Source of the DNA: Robertkochia aurantiaca
GTDB taxonomy: Bacteria; Bacteroidota; Bacteroidia; Flavobacteriales; Flavobacteriaceae
NCBI RefSeq assembly: GCF_020166495.1
Contig: NZ_JAINZS010000006.1
Span: 186,001 to 250,000, forward strand
Length of the DNA: 64,000 nucleotides
Direction of reading: 5' to 3'
The notes under the pieces are model-generated. The model ran no database searches, was not told the DNA's origin, and saw only the letters and a list, made by a program, of their open reading frames with translations. Of this stretch, positions 27,820 to 49,501 are shown piece by piece; the stretch's first letter is position 1; every line of letters starts with the position of its first letter. The position numbers and the translations under genes were made by a program.

Positions 27820-27851
27820 GTGATGGAGTTATGAGGTTACGAAGTTACGAA
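27820..27851. repeat. G-rich octamer array at the hemW 5' border
   Basis: Four 8-bp units follow one another: GTGATGGA, GTTATGAG, GTTACGAA and GTTACGAA. The array begins 5 bp outside the hemW start codon. Very similar units occur at 40559 and 43836. Confidence 0.75.
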
Positions 27852-28101
27852 GAATCGGGTTTGTTAGTCGTCAGGGGTTAATCGGGAATTAGAAATTAAA
27901 AAGTACGGTGTCTTCGCGAGGCTTGTTCAAAAGCCGGGCGATCTTTCTGAAACTTTCAGAGGGTTATTTTTTGAATAAGGAATTGCCAGATGGATTTTAC
28001 TGCATCAGGATTAAGGTGCTCCATTCGGCATCACCTTTTGATAGGTTATCAAAGATTTGTGTTTGGTCTTTTGGTCAATTTGCGAGAAAGGATTCATTTT
28101 A
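27852..28101. other. Non-coding stretch between two border arrays
   Basis: No gene is supported here. The sequence is AT-rich with loosely repeated pieces such as GGGTTAATC and GGGAATTAG in its first 60 bp. The rest shows no recognisable motif. It is bracketed by the G-rich array at 27820 and the C-rich array at 28102. Confidence 0.5.
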
Positions 28102-28188
28102 CACGACTCACGACTCACGACTCACGACTCACGACTCACGACTCACGACTCACGACTCACGACTCACGACTCACGACTCACGACTCAC
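28102..28188. repeat. CACGACT heptamer tandem array, about 12.4 copies
   Basis: The 7-bp unit CACGACT repeats without error from 28102 to 28188. On the minus strand the unit reads AGTCGTG and contains TGA once per 7 bp, so all three minus frames hit a stop within 21 bp. The pdeM gene (minus strand) takes its last codons and its stop from this array. The plus strand has no stop in any frame, which creates a false repetitive open frame. Confidence 0.95.
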
Positions 28189-28821
28189 CAAAATCACCTC
28201 CTCGGGGGTTACGGCAAATACCTTGTCTTTTTTACCGGGACGTAAAATGTATTTCCCGGTAAAATCACCAAAGGCAGGAAGGATCAAACGTTTTTCAGTT
28301 TTATAAAAGCAGGGCAGCCGGAGCTTTTGCCTTCCCAATCCCTTCAGGCTGATGCCGGGATGAACGTGACCACAGATATTAAAAAAATCCTCTTCCTCGG
28401 TGGGATGATGTGTCAGCAGGAAGCCTTTGCTGCGTATCTCTTCTGTAAGATTGAACCCCAGCGATTCCAGTTTGTGGTGGGGTACGATGTCGTGATTACC
28501 CACCACCAGGGTAAAATTAACAGGCGTATTTCTTACCCATGATTCGAACAGTTCGAACTCGCTGTTGATCACTGAGTGAAAGAGGTCCCCTAAAAAGCAA
28601 ATATCTTCTGGCCGGAACAGGTCGAGCATGGCTGACAGCCGCTCATATGCTCTGAGGGCTGTGTCTCCCGGAACGGGAATCCCGTGTTTCCTGAAATGCT
28701 GGGTCTTTCCCAGATGCACATCGGCTACCAGCAGCTGTTTTTTTTCTTCCCAGAAAGCGACCCCACTGGGATGGAGTGTAAAATGTTGTCCGGATATCTC
28801 TAATTTCTGGGTGCCTTTCAT
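28171..28821 (-). CDS. pdeM: Ligase-associated DNA damage response endonuclease PdeM
   Basis: The protein (216 residues from the ATG at 28821) is a calcineurin-like metallophosphoesterase with the standard metal motifs DVHLGK (34-39), GDLFHS, GNHD and GHVHPG. This subgroup accompanies an ATP-dependent ligase, a DEXH helicase and an MBL exonuclease, all three of which lie directly upstream here (helicase stop 26 bp away). The final residues (VSRES) and the stop codon are encoded by the CACGACT tandem array, so the original C terminus seems to have been replaced or extended by repeat DNA. A TTG 9 nt upstream is an alternative start. Confidence 0.92.
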   Translation of the reverse strand: MKGTQKLEISGQHFTLHPSGVAFWEEKKQLLVADVHLGKTQHFRKHGIPVPGDTALRAYERLSAMLDLFRPEDICFLGDLFHSVINSEFELFESWVRNTPVNFTLVVGNHDIVPHHKLESLGFNLTEEIRSKGFLLTHHPTEEEDFFNICGHVHPGISLKGLGRQKLRLPCFYKTEKRLILPAFGDFTGKYILRPGKKDKVFAVTPEEVILVSRES

Positions 28822-28847
28822 CAGCGGCAAAAATAGTTAATTCCCGT

Positions 28848-31301
28848 CTATTTAAGCAGTTGCAGTTGCATGCGTTTGATGCGGTCTGCCAGTTTTTCTG
28901 AGGAGAGTTTTTCACGCAGGCGGTCGGTGATGATCGGAAAGGAGAAGGGGGTGGGTTTTTCGAGTGCCTTCCATATTATGGTCTGTTGCGCGATACGTTC
29001 CAGCGCCTGTATCAATCGTCCCTCTTCCAGTGAATGTTCAAAGGTTTCTCTGAAGGCCTGCAGGTAGAGCAGATTATCGGGCTCAAAATCCCTGAAGACA
29101 TTGAAAAGGAGCTGGGAGCTGCTTTGCAGGTGTTTGCTTTTGAGCTGTTTGTCAGGATATCCCTGGAAAACCAGTCCGGCGATTACCGCGATATCTCTGA
29201 ACTTCCGGCGAGCCATTTCGGTTGCGTTCAGACTTTTCTGAAGGTCATCGTGCATGTAAGCGGTGGTGAACAGTTCGTTGTCCAGTACCTGCTGCATGTC
29301 GATTTCCTGGTCAGAAAGCAGTTCAAATCCATAGTCATTAAAGGCAATGGAGAAGGTGATGGGTTGCAGCAGGCTGATACGATAGGCCAGCAGGCTGCCC
29401 ATGGCTTCGTGTACGAACCGGCCTTCGAACGGATAAAAAACGGCGTGGTATCCCTCCCGGGTTTTAAAGGTTTCGATCAGAAATTCATCAGGGCCCGGAA
29501 TTACCGAAGTCTCCCTTTGCTTTTCGAATACCGGGGCGAGAGCGGTGATCTCTTCTCCTTCATCTTGCCCACGCGCGGTGTAGAGTTCCTGTCTGAGCAA
29601 TTCGCTCATCTGTGATGAAAGGGTCATGCGACCTCCCATCCAGCTGGGAACCTTGGCAGTTTTTCTTTTTGATTTTCGAACCAGTACCTGCATATTCTTG
29701 ATCTTGAACAGTTCCAGGTTTCTTCCGGCAAAGGTGAACACATCACCGGGATTGAGCTTTGAGATGAACCATTCTTCTATGGTGCCGATATAGCCACCTT
29801 TCAGGTATTTGACACTGAGCATGGCATCGCTGACAATGGTGCCAACCGACAGGCGGTGTCGCATTGCCACCCCGCGGTTGTTCACTACAAAGCGACCATC
29901 TTCATCGATACTCACCTTGTGGTACTCATCGTAATGCTGCAGGGTCTGGCTGCCTTTGGTGATGAAGTTGAGCACCCAGTTCCAGGAATCTTCATCGAGC
30001 CCCTGAAAACAGAAGGTCGAACGCACTTCAGGATAGATTTCTTTCGGGTGGAAACCATTGGAAACGGCCAGGGTAACCAGGTATTGTACCAGGACATCGA
30101 AACTCATCAGGTAGGGGATGCGATCTTCTACCACCCGCTGCTCAACCGCTTTTTTCAGGGCCGAGGCTTCAACCAGTTCAATGGCATGGGTCGGGAGAAA
30201 CCAGATCACACTTTCTTTCCCGGGTTGGTGCCCGCTTCGCCCGGCCCGTTGCATAAAGCGCGCCACTCCTTTCGGACCGCCGATCTGGATAATGGTTTCA
30301 ACCGGAGCAAAATCGACCCCCAGGTCAAGACTTGAGGTGCATACCACGGCTTTAAGGCTTTCGTGTCGTATGGCATTCTCAACCCAGATACGGGTTTCTT
30401 TATTAATGGATCCGTGATGCATGGCGATCTCTCCGGCGAATTCCGGGTATTTGGCAAGGATCGCCTGGAACCAGATCTCACATTGAGACCGGGTGTTGGT
30501 AAAGAGCAGGGTGGTTTTGCTTTCCCTGAGAATAGGAATTACCGCATCGAGCAGATGCAGCCCGAGATGTCCCCGCCAGGGAAAGGTGTCCATCTTTTCG
30601 GGGATGATCGATCGAACGCTGATCTTCTTTTGTAATTCTGCGCGAATCAATACAGAATTTTCAAGGGCCGGTGAATCCGGTCCCAGTAATACTTCCCGTG
30701 CCTGCTCCAGGTTGCCGATGGTGGCAGAGATGCCCCAGATACGCAGCGAGGGTGCCAGGGTCTTAAGCCGGGAGAGGGCGAGCTCGGTCTGAACGCCTCT
30801 TTTAGAGCCTAAAAGTTCATGCCATTCGTCGGCGACCACCGCATAACAGTCTTTAAAGGTCTTGTCATAATTTTTGGAAGCCAGCAGCAAATGCAGACTT
30901 TCAGGGGTGGTGATCAAAAGATCAGGCATGGAGCGTTTCTGGGCAGCTCTTTCTTTTTGTGAAGTGTCTCCGGTACGTATACCCACCGTTAGCGGGATTT
31001 CCAGGTCGTCGCAAAGCTGCTGGGTGGCCCGTTGTATTTCGAGGGAAAGCGCACGCAGGGGTGTGACCCATACTGCTTTCAGTCCTTTCTTTTTTTTGGC
31101 ATCCTTTCCCTGTTTCATCAGGTAAATCATCACGATGGGCACCCAAAGCGCATAGGTTTTACCACTTCCTGTAGGGGCATTCAGCAATCCGTTTTTACCC
31201 GACAGGAAAGCTTCCCAGGTCTTCCGTTGAAAGGGGAAGGGCGTCCATTCTTTGTGTTGGAACCAGTTCTCAACCAGTTTTAGAGCTTGCTTTTCATTCA
31301 T
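28848..31301 (-). CDS. Ligase-associated DEXH-box DNA helicase (Lhr-like)
   Basis: The 817-residue protein is an SF2 helicase of the Lhr type: Walker A APTGSGKT (near 42-49), DEWH box (158-161), SAT motif, a helicase C domain with MQRAGRSGH, and a C-terminal Lhr-type extension. It is the DEXH member of the four-gene ligase-associated repair set. Proteins of this set are linked to DNA damage response by conserved association; direct biochemical roles are known mainly for Lhr in other bacteria. It lies 9 bp from the ligase gene on the same strand. Confidence 0.95.
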   Translation of the reverse strand: MNEKQALKLVENWFQHKEWTPFPFQRKTWEAFLSGKNGLLNAPTGSGKTYALWVPIVMIYLMKQGKDAKKKKGLKAVWVTPLRALSLEIQRATQQLCDDLEIPLTVGIRTGDTSQKERAAQKRSMPDLLITTPESLHLLLASKNYDKTFKDCYAVVADEWHELLGSKRGVQTELALSRLKTLAPSLRIWGISATIGNLEQAREVLLGPDSPALENSVLIRAELQKKISVRSIIPEKMDTFPWRGHLGLHLLDAVIPILRESKTTLLFTNTRSQCEIWFQAILAKYPEFAGEIAMHHGSINKETRIWVENAIRHESLKAVVCTSSLDLGVDFAPVETIIQIGGPKGVARFMQRAGRSGHQPGKESVIWFLPTHAIELVEASALKKAVEQRVVEDRIPYLMSFDVLVQYLVTLAVSNGFHPKEIYPEVRSTFCFQGLDEDSWNWVLNFITKGSQTLQHYDEYHKVSIDEDGRFVVNNRGVAMRHRLSVGTIVSDAMLSVKYLKGGYIGTIEEWFISKLNPGDVFTFAGRNLELFKIKNMQVLVRKSKRKTAKVPSWMGGRMTLSSQMSELLRQELYTARGQDEGEEITALAPVFEKQRETSVIPGPDEFLIETFKTREGYHAVFYPFEGRFVHEAMGSLLAYRISLLQPITFSIAFNDYGFELLSDQEIDMQQVLDNELFTTAYMHDDLQKSLNATEMARRKFRDIAVIAGLVFQGYPDKQLKSKHLQSSSQLLFNVFRDFEPDNLLYLQAFRETFEHSLEEGRLIQALERIAQQTIIWKALEKPTPFSFPIITDRLREKLSSEKLADRIKRMQLQLLK

Positions 31302-31310
31302 GGGAATACG

Positions 31311-32900
31311 TTATTCAGGCAACAGGTCTTTCAGGTCATCAAGGGTGTTGGCTTCTTCTATCTTTTTGTCTTTCCGCCAGCGCAGCATTCGCGGAAAGCG
31401 TACGGCGATTCCGCTTTTGTGCCGGCTGCTTCGGGCGATTCCCTCGAAGGCGATCTCAAAGACCAGTTCAGGGGTGACCTGTCTCACGGGACCAAAGCGG
31501 TCGATGGTATTTTTCTTGACAAAGTTATCGACCTGTCTGAACTCTGCATCGGTAAGACCTGAATAGGCTTTGGCAAAGGTTACCAGCTCACCGTCATCCC
31601 ACAGACCAAAGGTGTAATCGGTATAGAGGTTGGTGCGGCGGCCATGGCCTCTCATGGCATAGGTCAGTACAGCATCAATGGTAAGGGGATCGACTTTCCA
31701 TTTCCACCAGTCTCCTTTTTTGCGCCCGACCAGGTAGGGCGAATCTTTCCGCTTCAGCATGAGTCCTTCGCTGAACTTGTCCCGGGAAATTTCACGCTCA
31801 CCGGCAGCTTCTTCCCAGGTTTTAAAGCTCATCAGTTCTGAAAGATGCAGTATACCGGTTTCCCCGGCATGGTCTTTCATGAGTTGATGCAAGAGATCCC
31901 GCCGCCTGGAAAAGGCCTGATCCCTGATATCTTTGCCCTGCCATTCGATGAGGTCATAGGCTTTGAGAATGACGGGGGTGCGCTCAAGCAGTTTTTTCGT
32001 GATGTTCTTTCTTCCTATGCGGGTTTGCAATTCGTGAAAGGTGCCTATTACGCCGTCGGCATAAGGAAGTATCTCTCCATCGATTACGGTGCCATCAGGG
32101 ATATGCCGTGTAAGCACTTCGAATTCGGGATATTTATCGGTTACCAGTTCCTCACCGCGGCTCCAGACAAAAAGCTCCCCGTTGCGTATGATCACCTGTG
32201 CCCTGATGCCGTCCCATTTATGTTCAAAAAACCAGTCTTGTATATCTCCCAGCTCTTCCGGTTCACTGTCTAGCGCGTAAGCCAGGTAAAAGGGATAGGG
32301 TTTGCTTTGCAGGTCTGCTTTATCTTCTTTCAATACCAGAGATTCGAAAGAGATCTCTGAAGGATCCCAGTTTCCCATGAGCTTATAGGCCAGGATATCT
32401 TCATCCATCCCGGTAGCCTGAGCCAGGGCCCGTGTCATAAGTTTCTGGCTTACCCCGATACGGAAGCCTCCGGTTATGATCTTATTAAAAACGAATCGTT
32501 CGTAGAAATCCATTTCCTTCCAACGCGCGGTGACATAGGCTTTTTTTTGAGGCTCTTCGAGCTCTCTGAGTTCTATCAGCTCTTCGATGATGTTTTGAAG
32601 GCTGCGGGTAATTTTACTTTCTCCTTCCCTCATCACCAGGGCTATGGTTTCGGCCAGGTCACCTACAATGTGATACGATTCTTCGAATAACCAAAGTGGA
32701 ATTCCGGCTGCTTCAGCAGCCCATTCCCGAAGTAAGGTGGTGTTGACGGGTCGTTTCGGGCGTCGGTGAGAAAGCAGGGCAATGGCCCAGACCTTATCAG
32801 GGTCTTCTGCAGTTTTGAAATAGTCTCCAAGCGCCGCTACTTTGGCGTTGGTCTTATTGGTGCTGTCAAGGGTTTTTATGAGCTGTGAAAATCGTTTCAT
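31311..32900 (-). CDS. ATP-dependent DNA ligase
   Basis: The 529-residue protein has the adenylation motif FEHKWDG with the nucleophilic Lys228, followed by SRGEELVTDKYPE, GTVIDGEIL (motif III-like) and a C-terminal OB domain with WWKWKVDP. It is a second ligase beside the NAD-dependent replicative one expected elsewhere in the genome. Its genes for helicase, nuclease and exonuclease partners are adjacent: it overlaps the exonuclease gene by 4 nt and is followed 9 bp later by the helicase. A role in DNA end or nick repair is inferred. Confidence 0.95.
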   Translation of the reverse strand: MKRFSQLIKTLDSTNKTNAKVAALGDYFKTAEDPDKVWAIALLSHRRPKRPVNTTLLREWAAEAAGIPLWLFEESYHIVGDLAETIALVMREGESKITRSLQNIIEELIELRELEEPQKKAYVTARWKEMDFYERFVFNKIITGGFRIGVSQKLMTRALAQATGMDEDILAYKLMGNWDPSEISFESLVLKEDKADLQSKPYPFYLAYALDSEPEELGDIQDWFFEHKWDGIRAQVIIRNGELFVWSRGEELVTDKYPEFEVLTRHIPDGTVIDGEILPYADGVIGTFHELQTRIGRKNITKKLLERTPVILKAYDLIEWQGKDIRDQAFSRRRDLLHQLMKDHAGETGILHLSELMSFKTWEEAAGEREISRDKFSEGLMLKRKDSPYLVGRKKGDWWKWKVDPLTIDAVLTYAMRGHGRRTNLYTDYTFGLWDDGELVTFAKAYSGLTDAEFRQVDNFVKKNTIDRFGPVRQVTPELVFEIAFEGIARSSRHKSGIAVRFPRMLRWRKDKKIEEANTLDDLKDLLPE

Positions 32901-39349: not shown

Positions 39350-40528
39350 ATGAAACCTGATTTATTCGAAGCTCCTGACTATTACAACATAGATGACCTG
39401 TTAAGCGATGAGCACAAGCTGGTTCGCGATGCTACCCGTCAATGGGTGAAGCGCGAGGTCTCTCCTATTATAGAAGATCACGCCCAACGTGCCGAATTTC
39501 CCAAGCAATTGCTGGGGGGGCTGGCTGAGATCGGGGCCTTTGGTCCGTATATCCCTGAGGAATACGGAGGTGCCGGCCTGGATCAGATCAGCTACGGTCT
39601 GATTATGCAGGAGATCGAAAGGGGTGATAGCGGGATACGTTCTACCGCTTCAGTACAATCGTCGCTGGTGATGTTTCCTATCTTCAAATACGGAAGTGAG
39701 GAACAAAAGAAAAAATACCTTCCCAAACTGGCATCAGGTGAATATATCGGTTGCTTTGGGTTGACCGAGCCGAATCACGGTTCGAATCCCGGAGGAATGG
39801 AGACTCGTTTTAAAGATGAAGGAGATCATTACCTGCTGAACGGGGCGAAACTCTGGATCTCCAATTCCCCTTTTGCTGATATCGCGGTTGTTTGGGCCAA
39901 GAATGAGGAAGGGCGTATACACGGACTCATCGTGGAAAGAGGAATGGAAGGATTTACCACTCCTGAAACACATAACAAATGGTCTTTACGGGCGTCAGCT
40001 ACCGGTGAGCTGATCTTTGATGATGTAAAGGTGCCTAAGGAAAACCTGCTGCCCGGGCGCAGCGGACTGGGTGCTCCATTAAGCTGTCTGGACTCAGCGC
40101 GTTATGGAATTGCCTGGGGGGCAATAGGTGCTGCCATGGATTGCTATGATACGGCATTGAGGTATGCCAAGGAAAGAGAACAGTTCGGAAAGCCTATCGC
40201 GGCTTATCAGTTACAACAAAAGAAGCTGGCTGAGATGATCACTGAGATCACCAAGGCGCAATTGCTTGCCCTGAGGTTGGGTCAGCTGAAAAATGAAGAC
40301 AAGGCGACTACTGCACAGATATCAATGGCCAAAAGGAACAACGTTGAGATGGCTATCAAGATCGCCAGGGAAGCCCGACAGGTATTGGGCGGTATGGGAA
40401 TCACAGGAGAATACAGCATTATGAGACATATGATGAATCTCGAAAGTGTGATCACCTATGAGGGAACCCACGATATTCACCTGCTCATTACCGGAGCAGA
40501 TATTACCGGAATACAGGCATTCAAATAA
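39350..40528 (+). CDS. Acyl-CoA dehydrogenase, glutaryl-CoA dehydrogenase type
   Basis: The 392-residue flavoprotein is closest in motif to glutaryl-CoA dehydrogenase, which oxidises and decarboxylates glutaryl-CoA to crotonyl-CoA in lysine and tryptophan breakdown. The stretch ERGDSGIRSTASVQSSLVM carries residues (E90, R97, S98) matching the substrate carboxylate-binding positions of the family, and TYEGTHDIH near the end contains the catalytic Glu371 next to Tyr370. It is monocistronic with its own promoter and terminator. With the saccharopine dehydrogenase at 680 it hints at lysine degradation. Confidence 0.92.
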   Translation: MKPDLFEAPDYYNIDDLLSDEHKLVRDATRQWVKREVSPIIEDHAQRAEFPKQLLGGLAEIGAFGPYIPEEYGGAGLDQISYGLIMQEIERGDSGIRSTASVQSSLVMFPIFKYGSEEQKKKYLPKLASGEYIGCFGLTEPNHGSNPGGMETRFKDEGDHYLLNGAKLWISNSPFADIAVVWAKNEEGRIHGLIVERGMEGFTTPETHNKWSLRASATGELIFDDVKVPKENLLPGRSGLGAPLSCLDSARYGIAWGAIGAAMDCYDTALRYAKEREQFGKPIAAYQLQQKKLAEMITEITKAQLLALRLGQLKNEDKATTAQISMAKRNNVEMAIKIAREARQVLGGMGITGEYSIMRHMMNLESVITYEGTHDIHLLITGADITGIQAFK

Positions 40529-40558: not shown

Positions 40559-40590
40559 GGTATGAGGTTACGGAGTTATGAGGTTATGAC
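40559..40590. repeat. G-rich octamer array after the acd terminator
   Basis: Four 8-bp units (GGTATGAG, GTTACGGA, GTTATGAG, GTTATGAC) start right after the terminator T run. They match the arrays at 27820 and 43836. The C-rich partner array lies on the other side of the CHRD gene at 41988-42141. Confidence 0.7.
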
Positions 40591-40888: not shown

Positions 40889-41740
40889 ATGAAAGCATGT
40901 AGTAACTATTTAAAAATTTCAACTCTGATTCTGGCCTTTCTTTTCCTGGGTTGTGACTCTGATGACGACGGCGACCTGGTCATTGATGACCCTGTTGAAG
41001 TGAATGCGATCGTATATGATCTCAATGAAGTGGGAGAGTCTGGTGTGAACGGAACCGCCACCTTTATCGAATTAAGCGATGGTACCGTAACCATAGAGCT
41101 CGATCTGACAGGTACCCCCGATGGCGGACAACACCCGGCACACATCCATTTCAATACCGCAGCTGAGGGAGGAGATATCGCTCTGACTCTCGGGACTGTC
41201 GACGGAAACACCGGGGAAAGCACTATAAACGTCACGGAGTTTGACGATGGTACCCCTCTTACTTACGAGGAGCTAATTCTCTATGATGGATATATCAACG
41301 TGCACTTAAGCAGTGAAGAATTGGCTACCATCGTTGCCCAGGGCGACATCGGACAGAACGATCTCACCGGGGATTTCGTAGCCTATGATCTTCTGGAGGT
41401 CGACGGATCAGGAGTTTCGGGTGAAGTGATCTTTGAGGAAAGAGTTAATGGTACAGCATTGGCGACCATTGCACTCACAGGAACCCCTGAAGGCGGAATG
41501 CATCCGGCACATATTCATGAGAACGACATTGTTGAAGGCGGTGGCATCATCGTAAGCTTCAATATGGTTGACGGAGATACCGGCATGAGCAAAACACAAA
41601 TATCCCAATTCGATGATGGCAGTCCGTTGGGTTACCTGGACATCCTGGTGCTTGACGGCTACGTCAACATACACCTCAGCGCCGATCAGCTGGAGGTGGT
41701 TGTCGCCCAGGGGAACATTGGGATCAATGAAACCCTATAG
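40889..41740 (+). CDS. CHRD domain lipoprotein with two CHRD repeats
   Basis: From the ATG at 40889 the protein has 283 residues with a lipoprotein signal (LAFLFLGC, Cys22) and an acidic linker. It then carries two CHRD-type domains (about 38-150 and 160-275), each with a GHPAHIH-like motif (GGQHPAHIH, GGMHPAHIH) and a closing DGYINVHLSSEEL / DGYVNIHLSADQL. CHRD domains occur in chordin and in bacterial extracellular proteins; the bacterial role is unknown. A frame upstream to 40799 lacks a signal peptide and was rejected. The gene lies alone inside a repeat-bracketed region. Confidence 0.88.
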   Translation: MKACSNYLKISTLILAFLFLGCDSDDDGDLVIDDPVEVNAIVYDLNEVGESGVNGTATFIELSDGTVTIELDLTGTPDGGQHPAHIHFNTAAEGGDIALTLGTVDGNTGESTINVTEFDDGTPLTYEELILYDGYINVHLSSEELATIVAQGDIGQNDLTGDFVAYDLLEVDGSGVSGEVIFEERVNGTALATIALTGTPEGGMHPAHIHENDIVEGGGIIVSFNMVDGDTGMSKTQISQFDDGSPLGYLDILVLDGYVNIHLSADQLEVVVAQGNIGINETL

Positions 41741-41762
41741 AATACGTTGATTGTATATTACG

Positions 41763-41789
41763 AAAACCGGCCACCTGGCCGGTTTTTTT
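41763..41789 (+). terminator. Terminator of the CHRD lipoprotein gene
   Basis: AAAACCGGCC (41763-41772) pairs with GGCCGGTTTT (41777-41786) around a 4-nt loop and continues in a T run. It lies 23 bp behind the stop codon. Confidence 0.9.
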
Positions 41790-41828
41790 ATTAATAGGTA
41801 TTATATAAGATCTAATGGTCTTAAACAG

Positions 41829-41893
41829 GCGACCCCTCAGCTCTACCGATAAAAAATCGGTAGAGCAGCTCCCCCTGAAAGGGGAAGGTGGTT
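41829..41893. repeat. Double-hairpin repeat element, copy 3
   Basis: The variable stem is GCTCTACCGAT (41840-41850) with ATCGGTAGAGC (41856-41866), 11 bp with a 5-nt loop. The constant part is CCCCT / AGGGG (41872-41884) followed by AAGGTGG. It lies in the 405-bp gap 41741-42145, in which no gene is seen. Confidence 0.7.
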
Positions 41894-41987
41894 TTGCGGG
41901 GCAAAAGCGGAATGGGTTACTGTTGCTTCGTAGGTTGCTGATCCGGGGATGGAATGAGACCCATATGATGGCTGTTTTCGTAATTTT

Positions 41988-42141
41988 ATAACCCATAACT
42001 TATAACTCATAACTCATAACTCATAACTCATAACTCATAACTCATAACCCATAACCCATAACCCATAACCCATAACCCATAACTCATAACCCATAACTCA
42101 TAACCCATAACTCATAACCCATAACTCATAACTCATAACCC
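41988..42141. repeat. ATAACYC heptamer tandem array, 22 copies, ending at the VOC gene
   Basis: Exactly 22 units of 7 bp (ATAACTC or ATAACCC, one ATAACTT) run from 41988 to 42141. The last unit ends 4 nt before the ATG of the VOC gene, so the leader and upstream region of that gene consist of repeat. Units contain TAA, so the array stops translation in every forward frame. Confidence 0.95.
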
Positions 42142-42145
42142 AATC

Positions 42146-42508
42146 ATGAAACTCCAGCAACTCACTCCTAATCTATATACCCGTGAGATCGAGAAAACCA
42201 TCGAATTCTACGTAAACAATCTGGGTTTTAACTGCACCGATTACCACAAAGATCTCGGCTGGGCCATGCTGGAACGGGAAGGCGTGTCCATCATGCTGAG
42301 CCTGCCTAATGATCACCTGCCTTTTGATAAACCGGCTTTTACCGGCTCTTTTTATTTCTATATGGAAGGGGTGCACAAATACTGGGAAGCTGTTAAAGAT
42401 GAGGTGGAGGTGGCCTATCCCCTGGAAAGCTTCGATTACGGCATGACCGAATTTGCTATCTATGATAACAACGGGTATATGCTGCAGTTCGGGGAGGCAG
42501 CAGAATAG
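42146..42508 (+). CDS. VOC superfamily (glyoxalase/bleomycin resistance-like) protein
   Basis: The 120-residue protein has the VOC pattern: TPNLYTREIEKTIEFYVNNL, GWAMLEREGVSIMLS and a C-terminal FAIYDNNGYMLQFGE with the usual metal-ligand Glu. The superfamily includes metal-dependent lyases, dioxygenases and antibiotic-binding proteins, so the reaction is open. Its ATG follows a 22-copy heptamer array by only 4 nt, so no ordinary promoter or ribosome site is visible. The dinB gene comes 96 bp later. Confidence 0.87.
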   Translation: MKLQQLTPNLYTREIEKTIEFYVNNLGFNCTDYHKDLGWAMLEREGVSIMLSLPNDHLPFDKPAFTGSFYFYMEGVHKYWEAVKDEVEVAYPLESFDYGMTEFAIYDNNGYMLQFGEAAE

Positions 42509-42604: not shown

Positions 42605-43819
42605 ATGAACAGGACCATTCTCCATCTCGATCTTGACACTTTTTATGTGTCGGTCGAACGGCTGATCGACAGCCGGCTCAAGAAGCGTCCGTTGCTGGTA
42701 GGCGGTACCAGCGACCGGGGAGTGGTGGCTGCCTGCAGTTATGAGACCCGGGCTTTCGGGGTGCATTCGGGCATGCCGATGAAGATGGCCAAAGAACTCT
42801 GTCCGGAAGCCGTGGTTATCAGGGGAAACGCCGGGGTGTACAGCAAGCATTCCGATAATGTGACCGAGATCATCAAAGAGAAAGTGCCTCTGTTTGAAAA
42901 GTCGAGCATCGACGAGTTCTATGCCGACCTGTCGGGCATGGATCGCTTTTTTGGCTGCTACAAATACGCCTCGGAACTGCGGCATACCATTATCAAAGAA
43001 ACAGGGCTGCCGATCTCCTTTGGGCTTTCGGTGAACAAAGTGGTGTCGAAAGTGGCGACCAATGAGGCGAAACCCAATAACCAGCTGAAGATCGATTTCG
43101 GTTTTGAAAAACCGTTTCTGGCTCCGCTCTCAGTGAAGAAGATTCCTATGGTGGGCGATAAGACCTACCAGACCCTCCGCAACCTGGGGGTGAAGCAGGT
43201 GCGCACCATACAGGAGATGCCCAAGGATATGATGCAGCAGGTGCTGGGTGCTAACGGACTCACCATCTGGGACCGGGCCAACGGGATCGATACCACCCCG
43301 GTGATTCCTTTTTGCGAGCGGAAGTCTATCTCGACAGAACGTACCTTCGACCGGGATACCATCGATGTGGCACGACTGCGTGGTATTTTGGTGGCCATGA
43401 CCGAGAACCTGGCCTACCAGTTGCGGCGGGGTGATAAACTCACGGCCTGCATTGCGGTGAAACTGCGTTATTCCGACTTCAATACCTATTCAAAGCAAAT
43501 GCGTATTCCTTATACCTCGGCCGATCATGTGCTGATCCCTGCGATCCTGGAACTCTTTGATAAGCTTTATAACCGGCGACTGCTGGTCAGGCTGATCGGG
43601 ATCAGGTTCAGCCACCTGGTCGGCGGACATTACCAGATCAATCTTTTCGATGATACGGAAGAACAACTGAGCTTATACAATGCTATGGATAAGATCAGGA
43701 ATCGTTTCGGGGAACGCAGTGTGCTGAGAGCCTCTTCCATGGGCGCCAAAACCATCGGTCGCATGTACAATCCGTTTAACGGACAGCCACCGCCGGTGCT
43801 GGCGCACAGGAAGCAGTGA
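42605..43819 (+). CDS. dinB: DNA polymerase IV (DinB, Y family)
   Basis: The protein (404 residues from the ATG at 42605) is a Y-family translesion polymerase with the catalytic acids in ILHLDLD (Asp9, Asp11) and SSIDE (Asp103, Glu104), the CSYETRAFGVHSGMPM finger region, and a C-terminal QINLF that looks like a beta-clamp binding motif. It can copy damaged DNA at low fidelity. The dnaE2 gene follows after an 854-bp repeat region, a partner set seen in mutagenesis cassettes. A TTG 21 nt earlier was rejected because it lies in the -7 box. Confidence 0.95.
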   Translation: MNRTILHLDLDTFYVSVERLIDSRLKKRPLLVGGTSDRGVVAACSYETRAFGVHSGMPMKMAKELCPEAVVIRGNAGVYSKHSDNVTEIIKEKVPLFEKSSIDEFYADLSGMDRFFGCYKYASELRHTIIKETGLPISFGLSVNKVVSKVATNEAKPNNQLKIDFGFEKPFLAPLSVKKIPMVGDKTYQTLRNLGVKQVRTIQEMPKDMMQQVLGANGLTIWDRANGIDTTPVIPFCERKSISTERTFDRDTIDVARLRGILVAMTENLAYQLRRGDKLTACIAVKLRYSDFNTYSKQMRIPYTSADHVLIPAILELFDKLYNRRLLVRLIGIRFSHLVGGHYQINLFDDTEEQLSLYNAMDKIRNRFGERSVLRASSMGAKTIGRMYNPFNGQPPPVLAHRKQ

Positions 43820-43835
43820 TGTCGGTCTGGGGCAG

Positions 43836-43899
43836 GTTATGGAGTTATGAAGTTATGGAGTTATGAGGTTATGGAGTTATGAAGTTATGAAGTGATGGG
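43836..43899. repeat. G-rich octamer array after dinB, 8 units
   Basis: Eight contiguous 8-bp units of the form GTTATGRA (last one GTGATGGG) begin 16 bp after the dinB stop. The unit is the same as at 27820 and 40559. It opens an 854-bp gap (43820-44673) that contains only repeats. Confidence 0.85.
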
Positions 43900-43910
43900 G
43901 GTGGAGAATT

Positions 43911-43945
43911 GTGGATTGTGGATTGTGGATTGTGAATGATGAATG
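43911..43945. repeat. GTGGATT heptamer array, 5 units
   Basis: GTGGATT occurs three times, followed by GTGAATG and ATGAATG, all in 7-bp register. The same GTGAATGATGAATG pair precedes the hairpin element in every copy at 44123, 47753, 48031, 48296 and 48534. Confidence 0.75.
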
Positions 43946-43949
43946 GGAT

Positions 43950-43992
43950 CGTCTTTGCGAGGAGCGAAGCGACGAAGCAATCTTTTTAAGAG
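43950..43992. repeat. Dispersed GTCTTTGCGAG hairpin element
   Basis: CGTCTTTGCGAGGAGCGAAG continues to CGACGAAGCAATCTTTTTAA. The same core recurs at 13568, 44123, 47753, 48031, 48296 and 48534, each time next to heptamer units. Confidence 0.75.
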
Positions 43993-44122
43993 AGTAGAGA
44001 GTGGAGAATAGAGAGTAGTTTTAATGGTAATTATCATGCAGCTATTGTCACACTGAGCATGTCGAAGTGAGACTATCCCAATGCTGAATTATGAATTGTG
44101 GATTGTGAATGATGAATGAAAA

Positions 44123-44165
44123 CGTCTTTGCGAGGAGCGAAGCGACGAAGCAATCTTTTTAAGAG
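44123..44165. repeat. Dispersed GTCTTTGCGAG hairpin element, second copy in this gap
   Basis: It is identical in its core to the copy at 43950, 173 bp away. Between them lies a GTCACACTGAGCATGTCGAA module (near 44046) and further 7-bp-phase sequence. After it come GATTAGG-like heptamers and a nonamer block of the CTCATACCA type (44221-44258). Confidence 0.75.
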
Positions 44166-44322
44166 AGTAGAGAATAGGGATTAGGGATTTGTGACTGGTT
44201 ATTAGTTATTAGCCGATAATCCATCATACCCTCATACCACCATACCTTCATACCCTGTTTTGAGAATAGAGAGTAGAGAATGGGGAAGCCCGCGATGCGG
44301 GATTAATTGTGCATGATGGATG

Positions 44323-44580: not shown

Positions 44581-44671
44581 CCTTAACCCTTAACCCTTAA
44601 CCCTTAACCCTTAACCCTTAACCCTTAACCCTTAACCCTTAACCCTTAACCACTAACCACTAACCAGTAAC
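44581..44671. repeat. CCTTAAC heptamer array, 13 units, ending at dnaE2
   Basis: Ten CCTTAAC units are followed by CACTAAC, CACTAAC and CAGTAAC, then two bases and the dnaE2 ATG at 44674. The unit on the other strand (GTTAAGG) resembles telomere-type repeats by chance. The left flank CAATTT is like the left flank CATTTC of the array at 48859. Confidence 0.95.
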
Positions 44672-44673
44672 CC

Positions 44674-47637
44674 ATGTACCTGAATTGTCACACATATTAC
44701 AGCCTTCGTTTCGGAACCTTTTCCGAGACCGAGCTTTTGGAGCTTGCCGTGGCCAATGAGGTCAGTTGCCTGGCATTGACCGATATCAACAACACTTCGG
44801 CCTGCCTGAACTTTGTGCGGAAAGCTCCGGAGTACGGGGTGCGGCCGGTGCTGGGAATCGATTTTCGAAATGGGGTGGAACAGGAATTCGTGGCATTGGC
44901 CGAAAATAACGAAGGGTTTTATGAGCTCAATAGTTTTTTGTCGGATCACCTGCACAGCAAGAAGCCTTTCGGGAAACGCCCGCCTGCTTTTGACCATGCC
45001 TTCGTGGTCTATCCTTTTGAAAAAGTGCTGGCGGAAGAGATGACCGACTTCAGCGAGCGGGAGTTTATCGGAATCTCGGTGGCCGACTTGCGTAAACTGC
45101 CCTTCTCCTGCTATATAAAGAACTACCGGGATCGCCTTGTGGTACAGCAGCCGGTCACCTTTCGAAACAAACGGGATTTCAATGCCCACCGGCTGCTTCG
45201 GGCTATCGACAACAATATTCTTCTCAGTAAACTATCAAAAGATGAAGAAGCCGATGAGAACGAGAAGATGTTTCCCGTAACCAACCTGGTGCAGGCCTTT
45301 TCAGAGTACAGCTTTATCCTGGAGAACACCGATCGCCTGCTGCGATCCTGCTCCATTGAATTCGACTTCTCTTCCGATGATAAGATGCAGAATCAGCGTA
45401 CCTATACCGGAGATCCTGAAAAAGATGTACAGTTGCTGGAAGAACTTTGCGAAAAAGGACTTCCATACCGCTACCCCGATGCCGGTCCGGAGATCAGGGA
45501 ACGTATTGACAAGGAACTTTCGGTGATCAGGCAGATGAATTTTGTCGCCTACTTCCTGATCAACTGGGATATTATCAGTTACGCCAAAAGGCAGGGGTAT
45601 TTTCATGTAGGCCGCGGAAGCGGTGCCAACAGTGTGGTCGCTTACCTGCTGGGAATTACAGATGTCGACCCCATGGAGCTCGACCTCTATTTTGAACGGT
45701 TTATCAACCTGTACCGAACCAGTCCGCCGGACTTCGACATCGATTTTTCCTGGCGTGACCGTGAAGATATGACCCGCTATATCTTTGAGCGTTTTCCGAA
45801 TGTAGCCCTGCTGGGGGCTTATGTCACTTTCCAGTACCGGGGAGTGATCAGGGAGCTGGGAAAAGTGTTCGGACTGCCTAAGGAAGAGATCGATAAGCTC
45901 AGCGAAGACCGGCTCCGTACTGATGAGCTGGATCAGACGGCCCTGCTGGTATTAAAATACGGGAAGCTCATACACGGTATGCCTAACTATGTGAGCATCC
46001 ATTCCAGCGGAATCCTGATCAGCCAGAAACCCCTGCACTGGTTCTCGGCGACCAACCTTCCGCCCAAGGGATTTCCGACCGTACAGTTCGATATGCATAT
46101 CGCCGAAGATGCAGGGTTGTACAAGTTCGATATACTCGGGCAACGCGGCCTGGCAAAGATCAAGGAGGCGATCGCCATTATTCATGAGAACCGGCCCGAC
46201 GCAGCCGATTTTGATATTCATGATATACGGTCGCTGAAACAGGATCCAAAGATCAATGGGATCATAAAGACCGCCCAGTGTATGGGATGTTTTTATGTAG
46301 AGTCACCTGCTATGCGGATGCTGCTGAAAAAGCTGGAGGTCGATAATTATCTGAGCCTGGTGGCAGCCAGTTCGATCATCAGACCGGGTGTCTCGAAGAG
46401 CGGGATGATGCGGGAATATATACTGCGTCACCGTCACCCTGAACGACGCAAACAGGCACATCCGGTGCTGTGGGAGATTATGCCTGATACCTACGGGGTG
46501 ATGGTCTACCAGGAAGACGTGATCAAGGTGGCTCACCACTTCGCCGGCCTGACACTGGGAGAGGCCGATGTGTTACGAAGGGGAATGAGCGGGAAATATC
46601 GTTCACGGGAAGAGTTCAAACGGGTGGAAGATAAGTTCATCAGCAACTGTCGCGAGAAGGGGTATGATGATAAACTGGTCAAAGACGTATGGCACCAGGT
46701 GGCGAGCTTTGCCGGTTATGCGTTTGCCAAGGGGCACTCGGCATCGTATGCGGTCGAAAGTTATCAGAGCCTTTTCCTGCGGGCTTATTTCCCACTGGAA
46801 TATATGGTGGCCGTGATCAATAATGGCGGCGGATTTTACCGGACAGAGATCTATGTGCATGAAGCCCGTATGCTGGGTGCCGGGATACATGCGCCTTGTG
46901 TGAATCGAAGTGGGATAGCGCATCGCATTATAGGGTGTGATATCTACCTGGGACTGGCTGCTCTGCGGGAACTGGAAGAGCGTTCTGCCATGCTGATCGT
47001 GAAAGAGCGGCAGGCAGGAGGCGTGTTTCGGTCGCTTGATGATTTCGTAGACCGGGTGCGTATCGGGATCGAACAGCTGAGTATCCTGATACGTATCGAT
47101 GCCTTCAGGTTTACGGGAATCGATAAATACGAACTGCTGTGGCAGGCACATTTCAAACTGGGAGTTAGCAAGAAACCCGAACCCCAGCAGAAACTGTTTC
47201 GTCCGCCTCACCGGAACTTTGAGATTCCGGCCTTGTCGACCACCCGGTTGGAGGCCGCTTTCGATCAGCTGGAATTGCTGGGTTACTGCCTCTGCAGTCC
47301 GTTCGAGCTTTTAAAGGAAGCGCCGCTCAATACGAACGGAGCGGCAGATCTGGAAGCTTACCTGGACCGGCACATCGATATCTATGGCTACCTGGTGACC
47401 GTGAAACGCACCAAAACCCACCGGAAAGAGGAGATGAACTTTGCCACCTTTATCGATCAGCGGGGGGAGGTCTTCGACTGTGTGCTTTTTCCGCCCGTGG
47501 CCCGTAAATATTATTTCAGGGGGAAGGGCATCTATCGCCTCTACGGAAAGGTCGTCAGTGAATTTGGTTTTTTGAGTGTGGAGGTCAAAAGGATGCGAAA
47601 GGAAGATTATATCGCAGATCCGAGGTATAGTGATTAG
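44674..47637 (+). CDS. dnaE2: DNA polymerase III alpha subunit, error-prone DnaE2 type
   Basis: The 987-residue C-family polymerase is short compared with the replicative DnaE (over 1,100 residues), as is typical of DnaE2. It has an N-terminal PHP domain with partly altered metal residues (NCHTYYSLRFGTF), the palm motifs VGRGSGANSVVAY (312-324) and PDFDIDF (352-358) with the catalytic aspartates, and a C-terminal OB fold (IYGYLVTVKRTKTHRKEEM). It probably works with DinB in damage-induced mutagenesis. Its ATG follows a CCTTAAC array by 2 nt. Its last codons (Ser-Asp-stop) lie in a GTGATTAG motif that starts the next array. Confidence 0.93.
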   Translation: MYLNCHTYYSLRFGTFSETELLELAVANEVSCLALTDINNTSACLNFVRKAPEYGVRPVLGIDFRNGVEQEFVALAENNEGFYELNSFLSDHLHSKKPFGKRPPAFDHAFVVYPFEKVLAEEMTDFSEREFIGISVADLRKLPFSCYIKNYRDRLVVQQPVTFRNKRDFNAHRLLRAIDNNILLSKLSKDEEADENEKMFPVTNLVQAFSEYSFILENTDRLLRSCSIEFDFSSDDKMQNQRTYTGDPEKDVQLLEELCEKGLPYRYPDAGPEIRERIDKELSVIRQMNFVAYFLINWDIISYAKRQGYFHVGRGSGANSVVAYLLGITDVDPMELDLYFERFINLYRTSPPDFDIDFSWRDREDMTRYIFERFPNVALLGAYVTFQYRGVIRELGKVFGLPKEEIDKLSEDRLRTDELDQTALLVLKYGKLIHGMPNYVSIHSSGILISQKPLHWFSATNLPPKGFPTVQFDMHIAEDAGLYKFDILGQRGLAKIKEAIAIIHENRPDAADFDIHDIRSLKQDPKINGIIKTAQCMGCFYVESPAMRMLLKKLEVDNYLSLVAASSIIRPGVSKSGMMREYILRHRHPERRKQAHPVLWEIMPDTYGVMVYQEDVIKVAHHFAGLTLGEADVLRRGMSGKYRSREEFKRVEDKFISNCREKGYDDKLVKDVWHQVASFAGYAFAKGHSASYAVESYQSLFLRAYFPLEYMVAVINNGGGFYRTEIYVHEARMLGAGIHAPCVNRSGIAHRIIGCDIYLGLAALRELEERSAMLIVKERQAGGVFRSLDDFVDRVRIGIEQLSILIRIDAFRFTGIDKYELLWQAHFKLGVSKKPEPQQKLFRPPHRNFEIPALSTTRLEAAFDQLELLGYCLCSPFELLKEAPLNTNGAADLEAYLDRHIDIYGYLVTVKRTKTHRKEEMNFATFIDQRGEVFDCVLFPPVARKYYFRGKGIYRLYGKVVSEFGFLSVEVKRMRKEDYIADPRYSD

Positions 47638-47749
47638 TTATTAGTTATTAGTGAGTCGGGAGTTGTGAGTTGTGAGTTGTGAATGGAGAGTGGAGAATAG
47701 AGAATGGAAAACCCTGAATTATGAATTATGGATTGTGAATGATGAATGG
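47628..47749. repeat. G-rich heptamer array starting inside the dnaE2 stop region
   Basis: From GTGATTA at 47629 the sequence keeps 7-bp phase through GTTATTA, GTTATTA, GTGAGTC, GGGAGTT, GTGAGTT (twice), GTGAATG, GAGAGTG, GAGAATA and on to GTGAATG, ATGAATG. The dnaE2 stop TAG is part of the first unit. GTGAGTC is the exact complement of the GACTCAC phase of the array at 28102. Confidence 0.8.
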
Positions 47750-48690
47750 AAGCGTCTTTGCGAGGAGCGAAGCGACGAAGCAATCTGCTGAAGAGATTAG
47801 GGATTAGGGATTTGTCACTGGTTATTAGTTATTTGCCGATATACCAGAATCTCATCATACCCTCATACCCTCATACCACAATACCTCCATAGCACAAAAT
47901 GTCACACTGCTCCGGAGGGTCGGGAGTCGGGAGTCGGGAGTCGTGAGTGGTGAGTTGTGAATGGAGAGTGGAGAATAGAGAATGGAATATCCTGAATTAT
48001 GAATTATGGATTGTGAATGATGAATGGAAACGTCTTTGCGAGGTAGCGAAGCGACGAAGCAATCTTTTTAAAAGAATAGGGATTAGGGATTTGTGACTGG
48101 TTATTAGTTAGTTGCCGATATACCAGAATCTCATCATACCCTCATACCCTCATACCACCATACCTCCATAGCACAAAATGTCACACTGCCCCGGAGGGTG
48201 GGGAGTCGGGAGTCGGGAGTTGTGAATGGAGAGTGGAGAATAGAGAATGGAATATCCTGAATTATGAATTATGGATTGTGAATGATGAATGGATTCGTTT
48301 TAGCGAGAAGCGAAGCGACGAAGCAATCTGCTGAAGAGAATAGGGATTAGGGATTTGTGACTGGTTATTTGTTATTTGCCGATATACCAGAATCTCATCA
48401 TACCCTCATACCACCATACCCTCATACCACAATACCTCCATAGCACAAAATGTCACACTGCCCCGAAGTATCGGGGTTGTCGAAGTGAGACTATCCGAAT
48501 GCTGAATTATGGCTTGTGAATGATGAATGGAAACGTCTTTGCGAGAGGGGAAGCGACGAAGCAATCTGCTGAAGAGATTAGGGATTAGGGATTTGTGACT
48601 GGTTATTAGTTATTTGCCGATATACCCCCATACCCCCATACCTTCACACCCTGTTTTGAGAACAGAGAACAGGCTGATGCTGAATTATAA
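47638..48690. repeat. Higher-order repeat of about 240-280 bp, about four copies
   Basis: The 1,354-bp gap 47638-48991 holds no gene. It repeats modules in fixed order: G-rich heptamers, a GTGAATGATGAATG pair, the GTCTTTGCGAG hairpin (47753, 48031, 48296, 48534), GATTAGG heptamers with GGTTATTAGTTATT, a CTCATACCC nonamer block, and a TGTCACACTG module. Spacing between hairpins is 278, 265 and 238 bp. The dinB-dnaE2 gap has two shorter versions of the same unit. Confidence 0.88.
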
Positions 48691-48751
48691 ATAAGGTTTA
48701 AGTTCTGATTATTTCAACCATCATCAGATTAACAGAGTCATCCAGAACGGA

Positions 48752-48766
48752 GGTGGCTTCGCCACC
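48752..48766. repeat. Short hairpin in the dnaE2-DUF456 gap
   Basis: GGTGGC and GCCACC with a TTC loop form a 6-bp hairpin, followed by a GATCTGCCGGATC stretch. It lies between the higher-order repeats and the CCTTAAT array. Confidence 0.5.
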
Positions 48767-48858
48767 GTAGTGAAGGATCTGCCGGATCGTGGAAGTACCG
48801 GACATATATTATAACTGCAAAATGATGGATTGAGAATCGCACAAAAATATGTTCATTT

Positions 48859-48992
48859 CCTTAATCCTTAATCCTTAATCCTTAATCCTTAATCCTTAAT
48901 CCTTAATCCTTAACCTTTAACCCTTAACCCTTAACCCTTAACCCTTAGCCCTTAGCCCTTAGCCGCATAACCACTAACCATTAACCCCTAAT
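48859..48992. repeat. CCTTAAT/CCTTAAC/CCTTAGC heptamer array ending in the DUF456 stop codon
   Basis: Seven CCTTAAT units, then five CCTTAAC-type units, three CCTTAGC units and degenerate units (CACTAAC, CATTAAC) run up to 48992, where the minus-strand DUF456 stop codon (48992-48994) overlaps. Variants occur in blocks, which points to growth by local duplication. Confidence 0.9.
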
Positions 48993-49501
48993 CACCATGT
49001 AAATAATGCCTCCCGATACTCCCAGACGCGGTAGATAAAGATCCCCAGAAATGCCATAGCCACTATGAACTTTAGCAGGGTGCCGGTAAGAAACCCCATA
49101 AAGGAACCGAAGGCGGCACGCATGGCGGTTTTATTGTCGGCCTTATTGGTGTACTCGCCCACCAGGGCTCCGATAAAAGGCCAGATGATGATACCGAAGA
49201 TCCCAAAAATGGGGAAGACCAGGGATATGATCAGGCCGATGGTGGTTCCTATGACGCCATTTCTGCTGCCGCCATATCTTTTGGTGCCGGCAGCCGGAAT
49301 GATGTAATCAAGTACCACTACCAGCACCGCCAGGAACAAGGTAATCCCCAGTGTGACCCAATTGAAGGGCACTGCCTTGGTAAGGTACAGAAGTAAGAGG
49401 CCGAACCAACTGAGAGGCGGACCAGGCAGTACAGGGAGAAAACTCCCCAGTATACCCGTGATGATCAGAATAAATCCAAGAACAAGTAAAAGTATGTCCA
49501 T
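48992..49501 (-). CDS. DUF456 membrane protein
   Basis: The 169-residue hydrophobic protein has the DUF456 layout: an N-terminal pair of helices with LGSFLPVLPGPPLSWFGLLL, a central GTKRYGGSRNGVIGTTIGLI and IWPFIGALVGEY. The function is unknown. Its stop codon TGA is part of a heptamer (GTGATTA) at the right edge of the 48859 array, the same motif that ends dnaE2. Confidence 0.9.
   Translation of the reverse strand: MDILLLVLGFILIITGILGSFLPVLPGPPLSWFGLLLLYLTKAVPFNWVTLGITLFLAVLVVVLDYIIPAAGTKRYGGSRNGVIGTTIGLIISLVFPIFGIFGIIIWPFIGALVGEYTNKADNKTAMRAAFGSFMGFLTGTLLKFIVAMAFLGIFIYRVWEYREALFTW

Follow-up and report, generated by a model that had tools for sequence, protein, structure and literature searches.

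Why should short tandem repeats at the two edges of an intergenic gap face in opposite directions, whichever way the neighboring genes are read? The question is raised by a stretch of 64,000 nucleotides of Robertkochia aurantiaca DNA (assembly GCF_020166495.1, contig NZ_JAINZS010000006.1, positions 186,001 to 250,000; this whole stretch is the window of the text below), in which arrays of 7- or 8-bp units stand at the borders of four gaps, hemW/pdeM, acd/VOC, dinB/dnaE2, and dnaE2/DUF456. An earlier note, made from the letters of the window, described G-rich arrays at the left borders and C-rich arrays at the right ones. The analysis presented here finds the same order in a sample of the R. 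aurantiaca genome and at array loci of other bacteria, mainly cyanobacteria: the G-rich strand of a border array reads out of the nearer gene and into the gap, at gene starts and at gene stops.

Polarity of border arrays in Robertkochia aurantiaca

The genome of R. aurantiaca (G000) comprises 3.43 Mb in 11 contigs. Its systematic sample consists of 58 stretches of 20 kb (1.16 Mb, or 34% of the 3.43 Mb), all in contigs C2, C3, C7, and C8; the window, which lies on contig C8, and two stretches picked for known arrays (L089 and L090) are kept apart from the systematic counts. Together, the 60 stretches and the window form the full array set of 1.264 Mb (1,264,000 bases), and the window, L089, and L090 are included in the replichore, arm-similarity, duplex, and unit counts. 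Arrays were called by a purpose-written scan with a score threshold of at least 12, and genes by a purpose-written codon-based script. G-type arrays have well more G than C on the plus strand, and C-type arrays the reverse. A border array lies within 60 bp of a gene and is scored on the 28 bases of its gene side; the border conforms when the G-type strand reads out of the nearer gene into the gap and violates the rule in the opposite case. Counts separated by a colon give conforming to violating borders.

Among the 21 border arrays of the systematic sample, 18 conform, 1 violates, and 2 are neutral, and all of those scored in the window (7/7) conform. Start borders (3:0) and stop borders (15:1) both follow the rule, and it does not require runs of G: the outward 28 bp lack GGG in 12 of the 18 conforming border arms (12:1). 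By the skew of whole arrays, those within 100 bp of genes comprise 17 G-type, 1 C-type, and 2 neutral arrays on the left of gaps and 11 C-type, 1 G-type, and 1 neutral array on the right; the sole right-side G-type array sits 4 bp from its left gene. Order is looser among all 64 arrays, whatever their distance from genes: 27 G-type and 13 C-type arrays lie on the left, 14 C-type and 4 G-type on the right, and 6 are neutral. Four arrays lie within 120 bp of tRNA genes, too few to be decisive; three conform, and the closest one does not.

Arrays are also concentrated beside genes. In the systematic sample, 15 of 64 intergenic arrays lie within 20 bp of a gene, compared with 7.1 +/- 2.3 by random placement, and 15 was reached in 2 of 5000 simulations. 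The genome scan that the earlier note had proposed, run here on the 34% sample, accordingly finds a polarity that is not random (18:1) and an enrichment at gene borders.

Two general causes of polarity can be ruled out. Array-free stop borders show no G/C skew (-0.06 to 0.01; n=339), and therefore ordinary base composition is not what seeds polarity at stops, where the borders of array gaps have skews of 0.25 to 0.54 (n=32). At array-free start borders (n=509), G is in outward excess over the first 20 bp (skew 0.20), and farther out the skew is close to nil; base composition may thus help at starts, but it is not able to explain stops and fails as a general cause. The second candidate is the replication strand. 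In the 105 arrays analyzed (113, minus 4 in coding sequence and 4 without a called gene on one side), there are 20 G-type and 15 C-type arrays in one replichore class and 39 and 25 in the other, with 6 neutral; both polarities occur in replichores of both signs, which excludes this cause.

Polarity in other genera and phyla

An exact scan for four TAACTGA units gave at least 111 stretches, 80 of them titled; the titled loci are mostly cyanobacterial, with some from Bacteroidota, Beggiatoaceae, Chloroflexi, and others. These loci were picked by one motif and are not independent (many are from Okeania and Microcystis). TAACTGA was designated C-type from its likeness to TAACCCT, and this was fixed ahead of counting. 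In the at least 111 loci, 218 borders have arrays, of which 173 conform, 19 violate, and 26 are neutral. TAACTGA-type arrays account for 91:8 (starts 51:1, stops 40:7) and other arrays of the same loci for 82:11 with 26 neutral (stops 68:8, starts 14:3). Borders whose outward strand lacks GGG again mostly conform (139:19). In a first pass over 80 TAACTGA loci among those listed, TAACTGA runs gave 74:8 with 1 coding; for other arrays the count was 95:30, a further 41 being neutral and 18 coding.

The rule is followed at starts as at stops in the R. aurantiaca sample and among TAACTGA-type arrays, and therefore the side of the gap decides polarity rather than the strand of the gene, as the earlier note had put forward.

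By title, 21 of 25 groups have a conforming majority in the at least 80 titled loci, many of them represented by one to three borders; the exceptions are Flavobacteriaceae (0:1), Gracilibacter (0:1), Marinifilum (1:1), and Chloroflexi (1:1). Among the loci listed, cyanobacteria give 112:7, non-cyanobacteria 15:4, and untitled loci 46:8, and the Microcystis borders among the titled loci listed give 21:0. The rule across phyla therefore rests mainly on cyanobacteria and on the R. aurantiaca genome, the non-cyanobacterial borders being few (15:4).

Systematic stretches from one contig of one Scytonema genome contain 33 borders, of which 22 conform, 6 violate, and 5 are neutral by their 28-bp ends (18:5 for those without GGG). 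By whole-array skew, the Scytonema counts are 13:6 near borders and 14:12 deeper in gaps; 13:6 differs from 22:6 because abutting arms of opposite polarity are merged in whole-array scoring, and at least one remaining violation is such a merged arm (L266). Inspection by eye shows several gaps of these stretches (L252-L271) in which an ACAGTGA-type array meets a TAACTGA array head to head, almost or wholly without a spacer; both orientations occur. Samples of Marinifilum and Christiangramia (200 kb each) have one intergenic array apiece, both neutral in polarity and hence uninformative.

Arrays and genes of the four gaps

The arrays of the window, found with Tandem Repeats Finder (TRF) or the purpose-written scan, and the neighboring genes, identified with Pfam, are listed below; REP denotes repetitive extragenic palindromic sequence.

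27819..27852, plus strand: G-type octamer array of the AGTTACGA family at the hemW start border, 4 bp from the hemW start codon (TRF)
28102..28188, minus strand (G strand): C-type heptamer array of 12.4 identical copies of CACGACT at the pdeM stop border (TRF, 100% matches)
40561..40589, plus strand: G-type octamer array, 32 bp downstream of the acd stop (TRF; under the threshold of the purpose-written scan)
41988..42142, minus strand: C-type heptamer array TCATAAC/CCATAAC, with its end 3 bp upstream of the VOC start codon (array scan)
43836..43897, plus strand: G-type octamer array GTTATGRA, 16 bp downstream of the dinB stop (TRF and scan)
43908..44212, plus strand: four more G-type heptamer arrays, at 43908-43945, 43989-44018, 44085-44119, and 44162-44212, interspersed with two REP-like copies
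44221..44254, minus strand: inner C-type octamer array (array scan)
44581..44672, minus strand: C-type heptamer array CCTTAAC, with its end 1 bp upstream of the dnaE2 start codon (array scan)
47628..47711, plus strand: G-type heptamer array GTTATTA/GTGAGTT, with the dnaE2 stop codon inside (array scan)
47653..48465, no strand assigned: 279-bp unit in 3.0 copies, each unit combining G-type heptamers with C-type octamers and a REP-like copy (TRF)
48858..48991, minus strand: C-type heptamer array CCTTAAT/CCTTAAC, degenerate rightward, at the DUF456 stop border (TRF and scan)
26657..27814, minus strand: hemW (Radical_SAM, HemN_C)
28171..28821, minus strand: pdeM of the earlier note (Metallophos)
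39350..40528, plus strand: acyl-CoA dehydrogenase (acd)
40889..41740, plus strand: CHRD-domain protein, flanked by a G-type and a C-type array
42146..42508, plus strand: glyoxalase/VOC protein
42605..43819, plus strand: dinB (IMS)
44674..47637, plus strand: dnaE2 (DNA_pol3_alpha, finger, PHP)
48992..49501, minus strand: DUF456 protein

All eight border arrays are found by TRF, and seven by the purpose-written scan, which misses that at 40561. As described earlier, the left borders (27819, 40561, 43836, and 47628) are G-type and the right borders (28102, 41988, 44581, and 48858) C-type. The period is 8 at 27819, 40561, and 43836, and 7 at 47628 and at all four C-type borders. The description of arrays that stop within a few bases of a gene holds for some borders (e.g., 1, 3, and 4 bp away), but the array at 40561 starts 32 bp past the acd stop; a terminator-like hairpin lies in between (by eye). 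On the DUF456 side, the periodic part (48858-48964) ends 27 bp from the gene and degenerate units lie nearer, and at pdeM and dnaE2 the arrays at 28188 and 47628 run 18 and 10 bp into the called genes. In the pdeM-like open reading frame (ORF), the final codons and the stop (28171-28188) are encoded by the CACGACT array, which by its sequence appears to have replaced or extended the C-terminus of the protein.

The gaps hold inner arrays of both types and REP-like cores. Gap-internal C-type octamers, unmentioned in the earlier note, were found by the array scan at 44221, 47855, 48134, 48398, and 48622. The REP-like core GCGAAGCGACGAAGCAATC is found at window positions 43964, 44137, 47767, 48046, 48310, and 48548. 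With one mismatch allowed, the genome has only seven copies, all on the plus strand of contig C8 and six of them in the two gaps beside dnaE2; the core is locally amplified and not a dispersed REP. The three-copy unit of 279 bp at 47653-48465 is a local duplication of a whole cassette. No Rfam family matches positions 26000-50000 of the window at gathering scores.

Relation of the two arms of a gap

The earlier note compared the arrays to terminal inverted repeats. This comparison is not borne out by the arms. Over 21 pairs, arms of one gap have no more 6-mers in common than arms from different gaps (6072 of 20,000 permutations were as high), and they do not anneal better with each other than with arms of other gaps, the energy of the own pair being lower in 6 of 17 and 25 of 63 comparisons. 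The mean arm duplex energy is below that of shuffled arms. One-polarity gaps are common (20 of 36 array gaps in the systematic sample at a lower threshold). A terminal inverted repeat element, such as a miniature inverted-repeat transposable element (MITE) or transposon, is rejected, the ends not being inverted copies of each other. A 7-mer arm faces an 8-mer arm in 18 of 27 G-to-C neighbors (7 to 8 in 15 of 27, 8 to 7 in 3 of 27); an oriented element defined by such pairing was set aside, tandem duplicates inflating these counts. What the two arms have in common is polarity, and not sequence.

Abundance and distribution of arrays

The full set contains 113 arrays of score at least 12 in 1,264,000 bases, of which 109 are intergenic and 4 lie in coding sequence. 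No array appeared in one set of order-1 Markov shuffles of the R. aurantiaca sample, and shuffles of Marinifilum gave one. Of the 366 gaps of at least 100 bp in the systematic sample, 23 carry arrays, and array gaps are longer (median 522 versus 209 bp). Arrays are clustered, with 43 of the 58 stretches lacking any. Of 24 array gaps, contig C3 has 14, C8 has 7, and C7 has 3; C2 has none in 15 sampled stretches, and one array was seen near its far end. In C3, third-position GC skew flips sign near 226-262 kb. In C7, the gene caller left 15,506 of the 20,000 bases of one stretch (L072, positions 417001-437000) uncalled, for which atypical codon use, RNA genes, or foreign DNA are the options.

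Units are diverse. The 99 arms have 59 consensus units, with periods mainly of 7 and 8; GTTA or GTGA is present in 73 of the 99 arms, and no core is common to all. In a pattern survey, 46 of 100 genomes of the family match, which is a rough figure of prevalence only, a reversed-pattern control hitting largely the same genomes because the reversed pattern fits tandem arrays too.

The same gaps in sister species

Three genomes of the same genus (G001, G003, and G004) share synteny with the window, and a fourth (G002) does so in part. At hemW/pdeM, acd/dinB, dinB/dnaE2, and dnaE2/DUF456, several sisters have arms at the same places that consist of other units with other periods (by eye), for example nonamer-like units at the DUF456 border of G003 (also by eye), and the polarity of these arms is mostly as in R. 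aurantiaca. Inspection by eye also shows, in R. aurantiaca, G001, G003, and G004, a short G-type octamer array past the acd terminator-like hairpin and C-rich sequence upstream of the conserved stretch before dinB. At a further gap, w30/w31, conserved flanks enclose a G-to-C cassette in G001, G003, and G004 but not in R. aurantiaca (by eye). Border arrays in the sisters total 7 conforming, 2 violating, and 1 neutral (G001 3:0, G002 1:0, G003 2:2, G004 1:0 plus 1 neutral, and no border arrays in G015); the two violating arrays, both in G003, each fill a small gap (127 and 44 bp).

Between acd and dinB (window 40889-42508), the CHRD gene is found in G003 only and the VOC gene in none of the sister stretches examined; judging from these sequences, gene content changes within the bracketed gap. 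Beside dnaE2, an ORF-like stretch of about 300 bp lies between REP-like sequences in two alike places in G004 (L092) and in one in G001 (L093), by eye.

Relation to known repeats

In the excerpts of Rehm et al. (2015, PMC4692102) drawn on here, the orientation rule is already printed for the heptamers GGGAATC of Xanthomonas and GGGGAYT of Nostoc PCC 7120. Convergent pairs number 70 in Xcc and 75 in Xac; mean distances are 28 nt to the 5' ORF and 160 nt to the 3' ORF, and relatives mostly have the same gene pairs with repeats that differ in length and sequence. As far as these excerpts go, the R. aurantiaca arrays are alike in being intergenic heptamer arrays close to gene borders with an outward G strand. 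They differ in that the units there have G-runs, whereas here there are 59 units in 99 arms, most conforming arms lack GGG, and REP-like filler is present. The Nostoc repeats are described there as having few pairs and as 68% intergenic, in contrast to 109 of 113 here. The claim of the earlier note that such brackets lacked any description may be right for paired brackets in Bacteroidota; the orientation rule itself, according to the same excerpts, is in print for Xanthomonas and Nostoc.

TAACTGA direct repeats are reported from Beggiatoaceae, Cyanobacteria, and five Bacteroidetes in the consulted parts of MacGregor (2015, PMC4679880). They lie mostly directly upstream of start codons in the orange Guaymas genome and in F. 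litoralis, where one set is downstream of a stop in reverse orientation; the same gaps have other heptamers in G. forsetii and A. sublithincola; and the arrays are read as a possible translational signal. In M. aeruginosa, 24 sets include 6 forward and 8 reverse to a start codon and 8 between stop codons, and the reverse sets, given there without nearest-gene distances, may include cases against the rule. Judged by those parts of the paper, the TAACNNN-type heptamers are alike; the arms of the window have other units, and TAACTGA arrays obey the rule at stops too.

Other comparisons are less close. As in systems of REP and TnpA-REP (REP-associated tyrosine transposase, RAYT), REP-like cores lie between the arms of the window, but R. 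aurantiaca has no Y1_Tnp match and the arms are not palindromes. In head-to-head interstitial telomere repeats, the G strand runs 3' toward the joint from both sides. This is alike, but the units here vary by locus and R. aurantiaca has no RVT_1 match. Tandem heptamers also occur in the cyanobacterium Calothrix, presumably those named STRR. Three tandem heptanucleotides of Calothrix are mentioned in the excerpts of PMC4692102, which do not give their polarity relative to genes.

What is new is that the rule holds for many units without G-runs, for period 8, and for sister species with other units at the same gaps, and that it is seen in a genome without a match to Ku, RVT_1, or a Y1 transposase. 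An account that unites the heptamer array families was not found in the consulted text of open-licence PMC papers.

How oriented arrays could arise

The explanation ranked first, and favored only weakly, is that gene-border satellites are made and remade as the interior of an intergenic gap breaks and is rewritten; we regard it as possible rather than probable. Selection would preserve both gene ends, the DNA between them being disposable. After a break, the 3'-ended strand on each side would be the strand that runs outward from the gene, and it would be lengthened by slippage of 7- to 9-base units or would invade another array and copy it. Each gene end would thereby gain an array on its outward strand, whatever the orientation of the gene, and repeated events would nest new arrays within old ones and bring in REP-like and other filler. 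The observations behind this proposal are the polarity rule, its independence from start or stop and from unit sequence, the turnover of units among sisters, and one Microcystis gap; we infer the breaks as the trigger, the outward 3' strand as the one extended, and the reason for its G-type character. The independence of the arm sequences of a gap fits two ends that are treated separately.

In the Microcystis gap (L168, 1114-1241), four genomes that are about 95% alike have common flanks and a TATCAGT array. Beyond the array, one filling is common to G042 (75 bp) and G038 (87 bp) and an unrelated one to G039 (106 bp) and G040 (165 bp), after which the common flank resumes. This resembles either a rewritten interior with a single junction inside the array or an exchange of DNA between strains.

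Searches of R. aurantiaca gave no match to Ku (PF02735; found in 7 of 100 genomes of the family), to RVT_1 (PF00078; 3 of 14 named control genomes positive, with reverse transcriptases outside this model not searched), or to Y1_Tnp (PF01797; 5 of 14 named control genomes positive). There is therefore, within the reach of these models, no dedicated end-joiner, reverse transcriptase, or RAYT at hand. Scars of non-homologous end joining (Ku/LigD) and repeats made by a telomerase-like enzyme or other reverse transcriptase were each rejected on the lack of the corresponding match.

Several points weigh against breakage and rewriting. The Microcystis swap is one site and could be strain exchange. 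Among the matches listed, a 7.6-kb query matches each Microcystis genome 79-188 times. Many of these matches are short (about 60-160 bp, 73-99% identity), occur on both strands, and fall on three cassette stretches of that query; by sequence, they look like a spreading unit rather than independent extension of ends. More than 100 bp from genes the order is weak, with 31 G-to-C and 16 C-to-G neighbor pairs, a count inflated by tandem duplication. Break, extension, and joining are proposed steps only, and the scheme leaves the G-type identity of the outward strand unexplained. In the excerpts of PMC4692102, Xanthomonas repeat gaps lie at more conserved places, with the same neighboring ORFs in 90% versus about 70% of controls; by analogy, such stability does not suggest frequent breaks.

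A mobile cassette, MITE- or REP-like, with arrays of opposite polarity at its ends and spread by some agent, ranks second and is rather doubtful. Either orientation of insertion would give G-type left and C-type right, and single arms would be decayed copies. The short Microcystis matches listed on both strands would suit such a unit, as would cassette-like modules with an alike AT-rich center that recur in contig C3 of R. aurantiaca (by eye), the cassette at w30/w31 in three sisters, and the convergent pairs of Xanthomonas, but paired arms are not complementary above background, the Microcystis comparisons yielded no recognized target duplication or clean empty and occupied site, units differ among gaps of one genome, one-polarity gaps are common, R. 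aurantiaca has no Y1 transposase or RVT_1 match, and, in the excerpts of Rehm et al. (PMC4692102), pairs are few in Nostoc. Selection on RNA ranks third and is unlikely: arrays would arise both ways, and those with the G-type strand reading into a gene would be purged as harmful to translation or transcription. It would account for the cleanness of TAACTGA-type arrays at starts, the outward G skew of array-free starts, and the weak order deep inside gaps. It is harder to reconcile with stops, which obey nearly as well as starts or better, with the lack of skew at array-free stop borders, and with the conformity of TAACTGA, which by inspection has no ATG, GTG, or TTG on either strand; avoidance of start codons was rejected on the last ground. 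To our knowledge, cyanobacteria have no Rho, and if so, a reading of the arrays as Rho sites fails.

G-quadruplexes, as discussed for Xanthomonas and Nostoc, could place the G strand outward, and the excerpts of Rehm et al. (PMC4692102) report quadruplex formation by the GGGAATC and GGGGAYT repeats together with the same orientation rule. The borders without GGG, which still mostly conform in all three samples, make this role highly improbable, and quadruplexes were rejected as a general cause, polarity holding without G-runs. Long imperfect hairpins, in which paired arms would be formed or maintained as palindromes (terminator-, REP-, or SbcCD-related), are just as hard to credit: the arms are complementary in composition and their duplex energy is lower than that of shuffled arms, but pairing within a gap is no better than between gaps, many gaps have one polarity, and 7-mer arms often stand opposite 8-mer arms. 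Somewhat less remote, though still improbable, is that oriented satellites at gene borders in several phyla are Chi-like edges for resection and recombination. Chi has a defined polarity relative to the DNA that it protects. The outward G-type strand would be placed like a Chi that shields the gene when degradation sets out from a break in the gap, and the array would give the protected 3' end homology to other arrays, so that gap interiors would be swapped and genes left whole. A fixed Chi-like core was rejected, none being common to the arms. PDDEXK_1 is a nuclease family that includes AddB; R. aurantiaca has two matches to it, about 5 kb apart, and the family is common (12 of 14 control genomes positive). 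The second match (contig C8, 31110-31628) spans one TGA, from a gene break or a match that overruns the gene end.

Implications

Heptamer arrays have so far been explained piecemeal, by G-quadruplexes in Xanthomonas and Nostoc and by a translational signal in Beggiatoaceae. A single rule that covers both kinds, units free of G-runs, starts as well as stops, and more than one phylum points to a common process at the level of DNA that acts at the edges of genes. The pattern bears on how intergenic DNA changes while genes remain whole, and it makes an old pattern testable.

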